A stretch of DNA of 13,045 nt from Anaerolineae bacterium (GTDB lineage Bacteria; Chloroflexota; Anaerolineae; 4572-78; NAK82). Position 1 is the first letter of the stretch. Every line of letters starts with the position of its first letter. A program made the translations under genes and the position numbers. Location of the stretch: NCBI GenBank assembly GCA_030598425.1, contig JAUVPY010000019.1, positions 1 through 13,045 of the forward strand, in the 5' to 3' direction. This document shows, in pieces, positions 3,983 to 10,450 of this stretch. Below the pieces are notes generated by a model. That model saw only the letters and a list, made by a program, of their open reading frames with translations, did no database searches and had not been told where the DNA came from.

Positions 3983-4458
3983 TCAAATATCCTTCACCAT
4001 ACACACCGCGCTGTCAGGACATAGGTTTTTGAACTCGGCCGTGTCTTGGAGCGGCGCTGGAGCCGCGTCGCGATCGATGCGCTGATAGCCTCGCTTGGCG
4101 AAGAAATCGGGGACGGTGGTGGTCAGCAGGTAGAGGGCCTGGACGCCTTGGGCGCGGGTGTAGTCCTCGGCCTTATCGGTCAACTGCGCGCCGATCCCGC
4201 GCCCCCGGCACGCTTCAGGGACGGCCAGGGAGCGCAGCAGCCCGACGTCCCCAACACCTCCAGCCCAACCACCCCGGCCAGCTTGGGCCCGTCGCGCATC
4301 ACCCAGAAGTGTTGTAAGGCGGCGGGGGTGAGGTCCTCGACCGGCAACTCGCACACGGCCAGCGTGGCCTTGATCCCGGCTTCGTCGCGGGGGCGGGCGG
4401 GCACCGGCGCCGGGTCGAAGCCGAACAGCCCGCCCTGAACGATGGGCGTGACAAACAC
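3983..4458 (-). pseudogene. arsN2: ArsN2-type GNAT acetyltransferase, frameshifted, fused in frame to the MerB-like gene
   Basis: The translation in two frames resembles the ArsN2 family of GNAT acetyltransferases, which occur in arsenic-resistance operons. The first frame gives AGIKATLAVCELPVEDLTP and GVVGLEVLG. The second continues DVGLLRSLAVPEACRGRGIG and LYLLTTTVPDFFAKRGYQ, and ends with CPDSAVCMVKDI. RGRGIG is the acetyl-CoA-binding loop. The two halves join with no missing residue if one base is re-read or restored in the G4 run at 4249-4252, so the lesion is a single-base deletion or a sequencing error. No convincing separate start is visible: the frame runs in from the MerB-like part without a stop. 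The nearest ATG (4456-4458) lies in the lyase tail and has no clear Shine-Dalgarno. The ArsN2 substrate is not firmly known to me; the related ArsN1 acetylates amino-acid organoarsenicals. Confidence 0.8.
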
Positions 4459-5163
4459 GTTCTGCTCCAGGGTCAGGTAGATGCCATTGGGTTGATCGGC
4501 CTCAGCCCTGTAGTCCTTTGCGTGTTCTTCTGACCAGAAGAAGACGGAGTTGCGTCAGAAGGCATCGATGATGTTCGGTTCGGTGAAAGTCGCCCAGTCG
4601 ATGAGCGGCTGAAAAACCAGCGGCTCGGCACCCTCGTCTGCTTCAGACACCTGGTAGCGCAGGTCGCTGTCGATCGTCAAGTGCAGCGACTGGCTGCAGT
4701 GGGCGCATTCCGTCTCGATCTCGAAGGACAGTGGCTCTTTCCGTAAGCCCCCTTGCACGAAGGGGGTCGCTATCACGTCCTCCGCTCAGGCGGCGTAAAG
4801 CCGCTCGCCGGTGCTAGAGGTCAGCCGGTGCGGAGTGCGCTCCGCGGTGACCGGGTAAGCCCAGGCCACGGCGCCCCTTTCGTCCCGAACCAGGAAGAAG
4901 AGTTTCTTCTCCAGGTCCTCCAGAACCGCCTGAGTCAGATCCAGGGGCATATCCAGTCCCTCGGCGATGAGCTCCGGCGGCAGCGGCTCCCCGCGCCGTG
5001 GCAGTTCCCGGACCGCGAAATAGCGGACCGCGTGATGGGCCGGGGACATAAAGCTCAGCCGGGTCTGCATATGCCCCGGCACGTCCGCTAGATGCCCTTC
5101 CCATTCGGCGCGAGGGATCTCCAGGATTTGGTTTCCTTGGCCTAACAGGATGGTTTCGGTCAT
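4180..5163 (-). CDS. MerB-like organometal lyase with two selenocysteine (UGA) codons, reading into ArsN2
   Basis: MerB enzymes cleave carbon-mercury bonds using two cysteines and an aspartate. Here the family fold is recognisable: an N-terminal winged-helix region, then VAWAYPVTAERTPHR at residues 98-112. GERLYAA-UGA-AED follows at 119-129, where MerB has YAWCALD, and AF-UGA-RNSVFFWSEEHA at 201-214, where MerB has SFCCHVHFFAS. Both UGA codons (4786-4788, residue 126; 4555-4557, residue 203) replace the catalytic cysteines, and Asp129 matches the catalytic Asp99. Each is followed by a SECIS-like hairpin. A CxxC pair (Cys153, Cys156) lies near the position of MerB Cys117. There are no other stops before the ArsN2 frameshift; with one base restored the fusion would be 393 residues. 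The ATG has AGGAGG at good spacing. A conventional gene caller would split it into fragments. Double inactivation at exactly these two codons is the alternative, and I think it unlikely. Confidence 0.83.
4525..4557 (-). promoter_or_regulatory. UGA-2 codon and SECIS-like hairpin
   Basis: UGA at 4557-4555 is followed after 12 bases by a perfect 7-bp stem, TTCTTCT/AGAAGAA, closing a GGTC loop (4532-4535). The loop begins 19 bases after the UGA. In E. coli fdhF, the SelB-binding loop also contains GGUC at nearly the same distance (recalled from the known element). The stem can be extended by a GU/AC pair beyond a C-C mismatch. Position, stem and loop all fit a bacterial SECIS. Confidence 0.78.
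4748..4788 (-). promoter_or_regulatory. UGA-1 codon and SECIS-like hairpin
   Basis: UGA at 4788-4786 is followed after 19 bases by a perfect 7-bp stem, CCCCCTT/AAGGGGG, closing the five-base loop CGTGC. The loop starts 26 bases after the UGA and has a G as its second base. That fits the general bacterial SECIS pattern (stem-loop about 16-37 bases downstream, G within the first two loop bases). No bulged U is apparent, so it is a less classical element than the second one. Confidence 0.7.
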
Positions 5164-5879: not shown

Positions 5880-6308
5880 CTATTCCCCGATCAGATGCAC
5901 CCAGGTGACACCTACCTGACGTGTGCCATTTGCCAGTCGTCTGTCGGCTGTCCAGAGTTCGGCTTGTTGTTGCTCAGCCAGAGCCACATACTGTGCGTCA
6001 TACGCCTTTGAGTGTCCAAGGCGATCAGCCCAGCGTAGTGCTTGTCTATGTAGCTCGGGGGTAGGCGGAGTGCATTGGATGTTCAGAGCTGAAATCTGGC
6101 CTAGCGCTTTGACTGCAAAATCGGTGGTCATCAAACCAGCAACGACCGCTCTGCGCAAAGCGGCTACTACTTCGTATTCGAGGAGTAGAGGGGCCAGCAA
6201 TTCGGCCCCAGTGTGCTTCCACGTGGTGATCTTCTGCGTCGCCTGGTCGGAGTAAGGCAAGGGCAGGACTGTCGCCGCGACGAGGTTGGCATCGATGATA
6301 ATGTTCAC
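5880..6308 (-). CDS. vapC: PIN-domain toxin, VapC-like
   Basis: This 142-residue PIN-domain protein is a likely Mg-dependent endoribonuclease toxin. The acidic residues expected of the fold are visible: Asp6 (IIDAN), Glu44 (LLEYE), Asp104 (AYDAQYVALAE) and Asp122 (TADRRL). Its ATG overlaps the antitoxin stop codon in an ATGA arrangement (6305-6308), the typical sign of translational coupling in a toxin-antitoxin pair. VapC toxins usually cleave tRNA or rRNA. The target of this one is unknown. Confidence 0.88.
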   Translation of the reverse strand: MNIIIDANLVAATVLPLPYSDQATQKITTWKHTGAELLAPLLLEYEVVAALRRAVVAGLMTTDFAVKALGQISALNIQCTPPTPELHRQALRWADRLGHSKAYDAQYVALAEQQQAELWTADRRLANGTRQVGVTWVHLIGE

Positions 6309-6604
6309 TCCTCATCTCCCCACACTCGTTCCATGTCCCGATCTCGTTCTTCTCTTACCTCAGCCACCAGATCGACGTGGTATATTCCGTGCTGCTCTTG
6401 AATTTGCTTACGAATGTGCGTTAACTCTTCAATAGCCTGGAGTTCACGCTGCAGCCGGACCTCTCGGTCCCGCTCGGCTAGGTGCCGCCCTACGATCTCC
6501 CGCACCAGATCGGATATACTTCGCCCCTCACGTTGTGCAATCTCGGTCAAAGCCTGGTGCTGTTCTGGCTCTAACAGAATCTGCGCTCGGTATAAGGTAC
6601 TCAC
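6305..6604 (-). CDS. ribbon-helix-helix antitoxin of the VapBC-like module
   Basis: This 99-residue protein begins with a ribbon-helix-helix DNA-binding domain (residues 3-43: a strand YRAQILLEPE, then helices around REGRSISDLVREIVGRHL). A long charged helix follows, expected to wrap and neutralise the PIN toxin. The start is a GTG with GGAGGT five bases upstream. Transcription starts from an excellent promoter overlapped by a palindrome, consistent with autorepression by the antitoxin-toxin complex. The toxin overlaps its 3' end by four bases. Confidence 0.85.
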   Translation of the reverse strand: MSTLYRAQILLEPEQHQALTEIAQREGRSISDLVREIVGRHLAERDREVRLQRELQAIEELTHIRKQIQEQHGIYHVDLVAEVREERDRDMERVWGDEE

Positions 6605-6620
6605 AGTTCACCTCCACCCT

Positions 6621-6650
6621 ATTATACACCTACACACGTGTAGGTGTCAA
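6621..6650 (-). promoter_or_regulatory. vapBC promoter with palindromic operator in the spacer
   Basis: On the minus strand TTGACA (6650-6645) and TATAAT (6626-6621) are both perfect consensus hexamers with an 18-base spacer. The whole spacer is an inverted repeat: arms ACACCTACAC (6626-6635) and GTGTAGGTGT (6638-6647) around a two-base centre. A ribbon-helix-helix antitoxin bound here would block RNA polymerase directly. The -35 overlaps the TGA stop codon (6647-6649) of the M23 peptidase gene. Confidence 0.85.
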
Positions 6651-8314: not shown

Positions 8315-8358
8315 ACGTGTATTACACGTATAATAATCGTAACCGAGGATGAAGTCAA
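8315..8358 (-). promoter_or_regulatory. mazEF promoter with downstream palindromic operator
   Basis: On the minus strand TTGACT (8358-8353) and TATTAT (8335-8330) are 17 bases apart. Directly after the -10, ACGTGT-N3-ACACGT (8315-8329) is an inverted repeat covering the likely start site. The -35 lies inside the last codons of the aminotransferase gene. The 8-mer ACACGTGT within this operator (8313-8320) also occurs in the vapBC operator (6634-6641). Confidence 0.7.
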
Positions 8359-9563
8359 ATATCGTGGTGAGGATTTGTTTTTTGCCATGTTTGGCTGCCT
8401 TCAATTAATTTTGCTACCTCCGGGAGCAGCAGAGCCAGCGTCTCGACCAGCGCATCCACGTCGGCCCGGGTGTTGTAGCCCTGCACCGAGATGCGCACCA
8501 GGTTCTCCCCGTTCCAGGTGATGATGGGTATCTCCACGGCGAACTCGTCGTGGAGCCTGCGCTGAAGCGTCTCGCCGTCGCAAGCCGGCAAAGGGAAGGC
8601 GGCCATCTGCGCATACCAGGTCGGTGTGTCGGGGGCGACGGGCGCCAGTCCCGTCAACTCGGTAATCGCCCGACGCGCGTGGCGGATCAACTCGTGACAA
8701 CCGCGCCCCACGGCAGGCCAGTCGTGCGCTTCCATGAATGCTATGGCGGCCGGGACGGTCAGGCAGGCGGCGATGTCGCGCGTGCCCTGGTACTCCAGCT
8801 CATCGATGAAGCGTGATGGCCCGGGCGTCTCGCTCTGCCAGCCCCAGCTCACCACCAGCGGCTCCAACAGCGGCTGCCTATCCGGCCGGGCGTGCAGAAA
8901 CGCCGCGCCCTTGGGGGCCATCATCCACTTGTGGCAGTTGCCGACGTAGAAATCGGCACCCAGTTCGTTCAGATCCAGAGGCACTTGCCCCGGCGCGTGG
9001 GCACCATCCATCACCGTGATGATGCCCGCCGCGCGGGCGCGGCGCACTAGCTCCGCGGTGGGGGTGATGAACGCCGTGGGGGAGGTGATGTGGCTGAAGA
9101 AGAGCACCTGTGTGCGATCCGTCACACCCGACCAGACGGCCTCGGTTACCTGCTGGGTGGACGTGACCGGGATTGGCAGCGCCTGGCGGACGTAGCGTGC
9201 GCCGCGCTTGGCGCAGATAAAGCGCCAGGTGCGGTCCAGCGCGCCGTACTCGTGGTCGGTCGTCAGGACCTCGTCGCCGGGTTCCAGGGGGAGTGAGCGG
9301 GCGACCAGGTTAAGGCCGGTCGTCGCATTAGGCACGTAAACCAGGTCATCGGCGTCGGCGCCCAGGTAGCCGGCCAGCGCCTCGCGCGCCTCCCGCATCA
9401 AGCCTGCGAAGCGTCGCCCCAGAAACGCCACCGGCTGGCGTTCCAGTTCCAATTGCCAGGCCTGGTAGGCCTCGAAGACCGGCCGCGGACAGGCGCCAAA
9501 CGAGCCGTGGTTGAGAAAGACCACGTCGGGTCGCAAGAGGAAAAGGTCGCGCAGATTACGCAT
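8355..9563 (-). CDS. class V aminotransferase / isopenicillin N epimerase-like PLP enzyme
   Basis: This 402-residue PLP-dependent enzyme is of fold type I, class V (the CsdA/isopenicillin N epimerase-like group). It opens with LRDLFLLRPDVVFLNHGSFGACP, the usual N-terminal signature. The cofactor aspartate is Asp186 in MDGAHAPG (185-192), with His189, and the Schiff-base lysine is Lys212 in GNCHKWMMAPKG (209-219). The C-terminal domain reads NLVRISVQGYNTRADVDAL. The substrate cannot be told from the sequence; desulfurase, epimerase and other amino-acid activities all occur in this group. The start at 9563 is preferred because conserved sequence begins there. An ATG at 9614 would add 17 unconserved residues, and neither has a clear ribosome-binding site. 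It follows the VIT1 gene closely and may be co-transcribed with it. Confidence 0.85.
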   Translation of the reverse strand: MRNLRDLFLLRPDVVFLNHGSFGACPRPVFEAYQAWQLELERQPVAFLGRRFAGLMREAREALAGYLGADADDLVYVPNATTGLNLVARSLPLEPGDEVLTTDHEYGALDRTWRFICAKRGARYVRQALPIPVTSTQQVTEAVWSGVTDRTQVLFFSHITSPTAFITPTAELVRRARAAGIITVMDGAHAPGQVPLDLNELGADFYVGNCHKWMMAPKGAAFLHARPDRQPLLEPLVVSWGWQSETPGPSRFIDELEYQGTRDIAACLTVPAAIAFMEAHDWPAVGRGCHELIRHARRAITELTGLAPVAPDTPTWYAQMAAFPLPACDGETLQRRLHDEFAVEIPIITWNGENLVRISVQGYNTRADVDALVETLALLLPEVAKLIEGSQTWQKTNPHHDI

Positions 9564-9638
9564 GTGCCAACCCAACGCTCCGCTCCACGCGGAACACGTC
9601 ATCCGGCCGGTCATTGCGCCAGATCAAGCTCAGCGCCG

Positions 9639-10450
9639 TCACGTTCCCAGACCTTTGAGCAGTGCGCCGACCGCGTAGGCCACGACCGCTGCCAGCCCAC
9701 CGACCAACAGCATCTCCAGGCCACTCTTCAATGGATTCTGGTGCGTGACCAGGACTTTGGCCGCCCCCAGTCCGAACAGCGCCAGCCCCGAGAGGGCCAC
9801 ACTGAGATGGGGAAGGCCATCCCCGGCGGGATGGGGACCACCAGGCCGACCAGGTAGACCAGCAAGGGCACCGTACCGGCCACGATGAAGGCGATCAGGG
9901 TGGCCAGCCCGTTGAACAGCGGGTTGCCCTCGTCCTTCATGAGGCCCAACTCGTCGATCATCATAGCGTCCACCCAGCGCTCTTTGTCGCGGGTCAGGAT
10001 CGACAACATCTGCTCGGCTTCCTCTTCCGAGTAACCATTCCGCCGGTAGAGTTCGTACAGCTCCGCTCGTTCTCCCTCTGGAAAGTGCTCGACCTCCCAC
10101 GTTTCGCGCTGGCGCTCCTTGTCGTAGTACTCCTGCTCGGCCCTGGTGGACAGATAGGCCCCCGTAGCCATAGAGAAGCCATCGGCCAGCAGATTGGCTG
10201 TGCCCAGGATGAGGATGACGCCGGTTCCCAGGTTGGCCCCGGCGACGCCGCTGACCACGGCGAAGGTGGTGATGATGCCATCCAGGCCACCATAGACGAA
10301 GTCGCCGATGTATTGGGAGCCCGCGCCGCCGTGTTCCTCACCATGGAACGCTAAGGCGATTTGATCGGGGTCGTGGGCGGCCGCCGAGGCCTTTTCGTCG
10401 CGTCTGGCGTATGCTTTGCGGGCGTCGTCCAGCCGTTTCACAAGACTCAT
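9639..10450 (-). pseudogene. VIT1/CCC1-family iron/manganese transporter, frameshifted
   Basis: The family moves Fe(II) or Mn(II) across membranes. The first frame (from 10450, GGAGG six bases upstream) gives FVYGGLDGIITTFAVVSGVAGANL and NLLADGFSMATGAYLS (membrane segments near residues 47-100). A glutamate-rich cytoplasmic metal-binding region follows (about 104-170, with RAEQEYYDKERQRE and RDKERWVDAMMIDELGL), then a third membrane segment (180-206). After GMAFPIS (210-216) the frame goes wrong. The family continuation, SVALSGLALFGLGAAKVLV and SGLEMLLVGGLAAVVAYAVGALL, appears in another frame to the stop at 9639. The shift lies near 9798-9812, within CCACACTGAGATGGGG, where a two-base excess or one-base loss would explain it. 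Corrected length is about 270 residues, normal for the family. It could be a true pseudogene or a sequence error. Confidence 0.83.

Follow-up and report, generated by a model that had tools for sequence, protein, structure and literature searches.

The MerB-like gene on the reverse strand of the window, by which we mean the whole 13,045-nucleotide stretch of Anaerolineae DNA analysed here, is interrupted by two in-frame UGA codons, and it probably encodes a double-selenocysteine (double-Sec) protein of the MerB fold, with its own SECIS element for each UGA and a putative MerB-like ability to cleave carbon-metal bonds. The parts of this explanation differ in strength. Sec is almost certainly incorporated at the UGAs. 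A role as a carbon-metal(loid) lyase, suggested by the fold and the catalytic residues, is the function that we somewhat favour, and methylmercury is the leading but unproven substrate, put forward here tentatively. An earlier note on this DNA had proposed a double-Sec organometal lyase; its reading of UGA as Sec is supported by conservation, hairpins and machinery, and its lyase half, which draws on fold and catalytic residues, is the weaker one.

Reading frame of the MerB-like gene

The window belongs to a bin of 2.96 Mb in 482 contigs that is 63% complete. The features of the MerB-like gene are as follows.

4414..5163, (-) strand: MerB-like double-UGA frame of 250 residues, ATG at 5163; Pfam MerB 46.2 bits against a cut-off of 27; AlphaFold pLDDT 95.8
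4786..4788, (-) strand: first UGA (codon 126), aligned with MerB Cys96; UGA in 67/68 members
4555..4557, (-) strand: second UGA (codon 203), aligned with MerB Cys159; UGA in 68/68 members
4777..4779, (-) strand: Asp129 codon, at the MerB Asp99 position; Asp in 68/68
4748..4766, (-) strand: SECIS-type hairpin 1, CCCCCUU-CGUGC-AAGGGGG, loop 26 nt 3' of the first UGA
4525..4542, (-) strand: SECIS-type hairpin 2, UUCUUCU-GGUC-AGAAGAA, loop 19 nt 3' of the second UGA

That exactly two UGAs interrupt the MerB-like frame, as had been claimed, is confirmed: codons 126 and 203 are the only stops inside it. Beyond UGA203 the frame stays open to a UGA at 4180, with no TAA, TAG or further UGA before it. 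The C-terminal ends of relatives fall mostly near residue 249-255 (the longest reaches ~277 and one, L078, ends near 232), and because most of them end there we set the MerB-like part at ~250 residues; the read-through product of 203 residues described earlier is too short.

Conservation of both UGAs among relatives

When the species-genome collection was scanned with patterns taken from the window protein, 69 loci were recovered, and a search of 25 same-order genomes gave L014, L015 and the window plus one weak match; a third TGA in L015 is its gene end. From the 74 loci aligned, L016, L018, L085, L086 and L087 were dropped as distant or fragmentary and L029, identical to L015, was merged with it, leaving 68 distinct members including the window. 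UGA stands at codon 126 in 67/68 of these and at codon 203 in 68/68, with no other internal stop. The sole member with Cys at codon 126 (TGT) is L050 (5989-6636), which retains UGA203. Family bins are labelled Chloroflexota, 'Deltaproteobacteria', Desulfobacterales, Acidobacteriota, Nitrospirae, Acidimicrobiia and others. Sequence similarity extends past the UGAs to about residue 249 in most members, and the Sec motifs read YAA-U-AxD and F-U-xxSVFFW. The search patterns were codon-degenerate and the UGAs were not among them; one pattern was VFFWSEEH, so the perfect protein-level conservation of residues 207-214 is partly imposed.

Protein searches free of motif patterns were also carried out. 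Among 400 Chloroflexota genomes, all four matches above 250 bits hold exactly two TGA (one is the window itself, and another, L097, was already in the pattern scan), the other 11 matches being distant at <=41 bits. The 395 Desulfobacterota genomes yielded 15 matches of >=147 bits, every one with two TGA, at least 4 of them repeating genomes of the pattern scan; six weaker matches (<=33 bits) have one or no TGA. Moreover, L098 and L099, which came from the pattern-free search, carry the same hairpins as the family.

The earlier note had argued that random decay would not pick these two codons, and had suggested a search for homologues with Cys or Sec at both. The first point stands, given UGA at the same two columns across phyla, and the search was fruitful, recovering the UGA family and in addition relatives with Cys at both columns, for example L018 (TGC/TGC) and the Chloroflexota MerB-like loci L102, L103 and L109. 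These Cys/Cys homologues are all distant, at about 25-35% identity. Among the close relatives found, none has a random internal stop and none has TGC or TGT at both codons.

Alignment to MerB and predicted fold

A profile of 66 members was aligned to solved MerB, for which we take the residue numbers Cys96, Asp99, Cys117 and Cys159 as landmarks. Residue 126 aligns to Cys96, 129 to Asp99, 153 to Cys117 and 203 to Cys159. PDB entry titles of MerB give the mutants C160S and D99S; 3f2g is the C160S mutant, which settles that of the adjacent Cys residues it is Cys159 that aligns to residue 203. Both cysteine alignments proposed beforehand are therefore right, as is the claim that the equivalent of the catalytic Asp99 is intact: it is Asp129, present in all 68 members.

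Pfam MerB (PF03243) scores 46.2 bits on the window protein, above its gathering cut-off of 27, and matches at E <=0.01 in 66/66 members scanned (the 68 less L068 and L076). The cut-offs of the curated MerB models lie far above the window protein, which scores 45.4 against a cut-off of 193 (NF009710) and 38.5 against 200 (NF033555). Apart from SaoL, considered below, these two are the only NCBIfam models that match any of the 66 members at E <=0.01. A search of the PDB with the single window sequence found no match; the profile search did find MerB. AlphaFold predicts the MerB fold throughout the catalytic domain (pLDDT 95.8), the structural comparison being confined to the matches that Foldseek itself returned.

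Compared with MerB itself (PDB 3f0o, 3f2f, 1s6l; PF03243), which has a catalytic Cys pair, the window family has UGA (Sec) at both places; of the Cys96/Cys159/Asp99 signature of MerB sensu stricto, Asp is kept and both Cys positions are UGA. Identity to MerB is 20-22%, the window protein has an N-terminal extension of about 20 residues, and similarity clustering found no conserved operon around the double-UGA loci. MerB2 (PDB 5c17) has Cys at both sites and, in the alignment, Ser at the Asp99 position, whereas the double-UGA family has Asp in 68/68.

Proposed mechanism and function

MerB holds its metal between two Cys while Asp99 protonates the carbon. By analogy, an organometal substrate would be gripped at its soft metal(loid) by Sec126 and Sec203, and protonation of the carbon by Asp129 would then split the carbon-metal bond. 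Each Sec would be inserted by SelB and tRNA-Sec at its UGA, steered by its own hairpin a few codons downstream. Selenolates carry no proton at neutral pH and have a higher affinity for mercury, so Hg-C protonolysis should be easier. Product release would be the difficulty, so that a role as a trap, or one limited to a single turnover, has to be taken seriously as an alternative. We know of no characterised close relative. A passage of one review describes selones, as mimics of the lyase, reacting faster than their sulfur analogues (PMC11639659).

A real double-Sec protein that is not a carbon-metal lyase, serving instead as a redox Sec pair or as a metal trap without turnover, is in our judgement somewhat unlikely. 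Its case lies partly in the gene neighbourhood. Similarity clustering of the neighbours of 66 loci, some with little flank, gave no conserved partner gene, and the commonest clusters, an upstream MerR-type and an upstream MarR-type regulator, occur at only 7 and 6 of the 66 loci (Pfam identified one gene of each type). The window has a relative of F420H2-dependent quinone reductases upstream and an M50 peptidase relative downstream, and the MerB-like gene looks self-standing. Moreover, an Hg-Se bond might prove so strong that the product is not let go, and section 7 of a review holds that most uncharacterised selenoproteins are likely to be redox proteins (PMC13188914). Against a non-lyase role, the catalytic Asp is found in 68/68 members and stands as far from the first Sec as it does from Cys96 in MerB, the prediction shows a MerB fold throughout, and the two Sec lie 77 residues apart, unlike a redox motif of the CxxU type.

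The earlier note had also raised SaoL, the MerB-like selenoprotein of a selenocysteine-assisted organometal system, as a possible home for the protein. A divergent SaoL is, we think, very improbable. The SaoL profile (NF040728) does match 66/66 scanned members at E <=0.01; the window protein, however, scores 37.6 bits against a cut-off of 140, and none of 44 family genomes holds a match over the cut-off. SaoL resembles the double-UGA protein as a MerB relative that is listed as a selenoprotein (table of PMC13188914). It differs in that its model has 159 positions and its entry in the same table gives one Sec, in a CU motif, whereas the double-UGA protein has ~250 residues and two separated Sec. 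On these scores, genome counts and Sec numbers we reject identity with SaoL.

SECIS-type hairpins

In the family, UGA126 is followed by CGCCCUU-CGUGC-AAGGGCG or a variant of it, and UGA203 by UUCUUCU-GGUC-AGAAGAA. Codon entropy was scored in 115 columns, those in which the majority residue occurs in at least 40 of 68 sequences, with Met and Trp excluded. The ten lowest-entropy columns are the hairpin core codons P134, F135, V136, Q137 and G138 after the first UGA and F208, F209, S211, E212 and E213 after the second, at 0 to 0.50 bits versus a median of 1.63; Trp210 has no synonym, and the outer codons of hairpin 1, 133 and 139, are variable. Ser211 is TCA in 64/68, although TCA encodes 11% of the other serines of these genes; for Pro134 the codon is CCC in 66/66, versus 28% elsewhere.

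Covariation adds to this at hairpin 1. There, compensatory change was counted in 16 cells versus 5.1 in shuffles (0/500 as high), three pairs have changed on both sides (11/500 shuffles as high), and 94.9% of cells are paired versus 32-60% when the hairpin is slid. No covariation was seen within the family at hairpin 2, because there is hardly any variation. In L050, with Cys at site 1, hairpin 1 is broken and hairpin 2 intact.

The bacterial SECIS model, as set out in PMC13188914, calls for a loop of 3-9 nt, a stem of 4-16 bp and G in the first two loop positions, with a spacing of 16-37 nt and an MFE <=-7.5 (legend of Fig 2). Site 1 agrees with it in every respect in 68/68, with loop CGUGC and a spacing of 26 in 64; the model is permissive, since L050 passes there through another hairpin. 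The GGUC loop and 19-nt spacing at site 2 are present in 68/68, and 60/68 agree in everything including the energy limit. When hairpins were ranked codon by codon in 23 of the 68 genes, the share of codons with a better qualifying hairpin had a median of 3% for site 1, with 48% in the worst gene, and of 12% for site 2, with 38% in the worst. The UGAs of a gene are not picked out by hairpin energy alone, and it is therefore the codon freeze that carries weight. Similarly, generic folding energy against synonymous shuffles gave a weak signal, with mean z of -0.71 and +0.11 at the UGAs and -0.65 to +0.38 at 13 control columns. Rfam returned only chance-like microRNA matches on the window, and nothing on four contigs of its own genome (three with Sec genes, one without).

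The ArsN2 part and the rest of the contig

The MerB-like frame runs on into an ArsN2-like acetyltransferase.

4243..4383, (-) strand: first part of the ArsN2-like acetyltransferase, in the MerB-like frame; NCBIfam ArsN2 22.3 bits, profile positions 2-48 of 133
3986..4354, (-) strand: rest of the ArsN2-like domain, in another frame; NCBIfam ArsN2 117.4 bits against a cut-off of 125, positions 34-132

Of the ArsN2 part reported earlier, the beginning (profile positions 2-48) does stand in the MerB-like frame, and the rest (34-132) is in another frame; what is present is a domain split by one frame break and not an intact domain fused to the MerB-like part. Among the other members examined past the MerB-like end none has an ArsN2-like continuation, so far seen only in the window. 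Because it is known from the window only and is frame-broken, we give an ArsN2 fusion little weight and leave it out of the mechanism.

A VIT1-family gene at 9642-10450 of the window is likewise split between two reading frames, so that base-level indels in the assembly are possible. These two breaks are what could be said for regarding the MerB-like gene as a decaying pseudogene, or its UGAs as sequencing or assembly errors, but the MerB-like part is free of both, UGA recurs at these two positions in further genomes and phyla while other internal stops are absent, and synonymous variation is frozen in the core of each hairpin, and we give this explanation practically no weight.

Elsewhere in the window, a class-V aminotransferase gene (8358-9614) scores far below the cut-offs of the SufS and selenocysteine lyase models among the matches listed, a transposase-like gene (215-1543) has HTH and integrase-core matches, and a pair of small genes (5880-6604) has, by eye, the look of a toxin-antitoxin module.

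Selenocysteine machinery

The window's own genome encodes selA (575 bits) and selB (354.6 bits with both stretches), each over its cut-off, and a piece of selD that is over the cut-off and cut by a contig end. In this 63%-complete bin tRNA-Sec was not found, the top matches being tRNA-Ser. Thus the search for selA, selB, selC and selD that had been suggested succeeded for selA, selB and part of selD, and tRNA-Sec did not appear in the incomplete bin.

For tRNA-Sec, the genomes of 44 of 71 relatives' loci were searched, among which G034 and G010 are one genome. The gathering score for tRNA-Sec was passed by 40/44 family-genome handles and also by 5/14 control genomes; because it is so unspecific, a limit of 61 bits was used, chosen after viewing the score list, tRNA-Ser being able to reach the fifties. 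At this limit 37/44 handles have tRNA-Sec, and the best four were confirmed, with anticodon UCA. The same-order genomes G007 and G010 gave strong matches of 67.5 and 69.3 bits. As for selA, it is over the cut-off in 39/44 family genomes, the window's included (any match in 42), versus 1/14 controls. It is also over the cut-off in 321/400 Chloroflexota, so in that phylum the co-occurrence adds little.

Reassignment of UGA to an ordinary amino acid in the window's genome, for which the two in-frame UGAs might themselves be cited, can be dismissed, as the selA and selB frames contain no internal UGA, the M23 peptidase gene of the window ends at a UGA (6647-6649) shortly past its last domain, and the two UGAs of the MerB-like gene sit at catalytic Cys positions with a hairpin after each.

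A second double-UGA MerB-like family

Below its cut-off, the SaoL profile also picked up a family of shorter MerB-like proteins encoded by some of the family genomes. With one of these proteins (P0003) as query, the 395 Desulfobacterota genomes gave 26 matches of >=180 bits, all with two TGA; below that score come partial or distant matches, in which TGA occurs twice, once or not at all. In the alignment of this family, 29/39 loci have TGA at both columns and Glu at the Asp99 position.

L144-L148, L152, L154, L158-L179, outside the window: second-family double-TGA loci

As L147 equals L176 and L148 equals L164, the 29 loci represent 27 distinct double-TGA genes. L183-L187, distant relatives of this family at about 25-35% identity, have Cys at both columns and Glu. 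Of the remaining five loci, two have TGA at the first column and end short of the second, another covers neither column, one has TGA at the second only, and L157 reads TGT/TGA. The last is a distant MerB-like locus with a GGUC-loop hairpin and a TAG inside the match.

An alignment with a six-member profile places the UGAs of the second family at MerB Cys96 and Cys159. Most of its members carry, after the second UGA, the hairpin CUCUUCC-GGUC-GGAAGAG, which has the same structure as that of the first family and differs from it in sequence. One genome holds both double-UGA families (L037, L146) and also a Cys/Cys MerB relative, L135/L156 (G042:C117).

These observations suggest a broader hypothesis, on which our opinion is evenly divided. 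It is that a branch of the MerB fold with at least two subfamilies, one with Asp and a shorter one with Glu, has exchanged its catalytic Cys pair for an obligate Sec pair, and that its members act as diselenolate carbon-metal(loid) lyases in anaerobic and sediment bacteria, independently of a mer operon. If true, such lyases would perhaps demethylate mercury at low levels or act on other methylated metal(loid)s.

Discussion

Both the fold and the recoding described here are known, and we did not find their combination in print within the open-access literature searched. The table of PMC13188914 gives SaoL a single Sec and contains no MerB-like protein with two. Its MbdU, MduS, UxxU proteins and others likewise carry two or more UGA-encoded Sec per chain, and judged by the names in the table none of these is MerB-like. 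PMC9312934 lists one MerB-like selenoprotein, under SaoL's accession and with no Sec count, and text searches of PMC12013277, PMC2398784, PMC5029168 and PMC8318568 turned up no MerB-like protein. No MerB-type family with two Sec came up among the open-access matches listed, a set that does not include Haft and Gwadz 2023 or Haft and Tolstoy 2025.

An ordinary gene caller would end such a gene at its first UGA, and therefore these genes are probably missing or truncated in most annotations. The family would be an unusual case in which a whole catalytic pair has turned to Sec, with a frozen SECIS for each. L050, in which Cys has been kept or regained at one site, offers a natural test of what the second Sec contributes.

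How methylmercury is demethylated outside the mer operon is a standing question in mercury biogeochemistry. A lyase-like family that is widespread and has selenium at each of its two metal-binding positions would be a concrete, testable candidate for such mer-independent demethylation.
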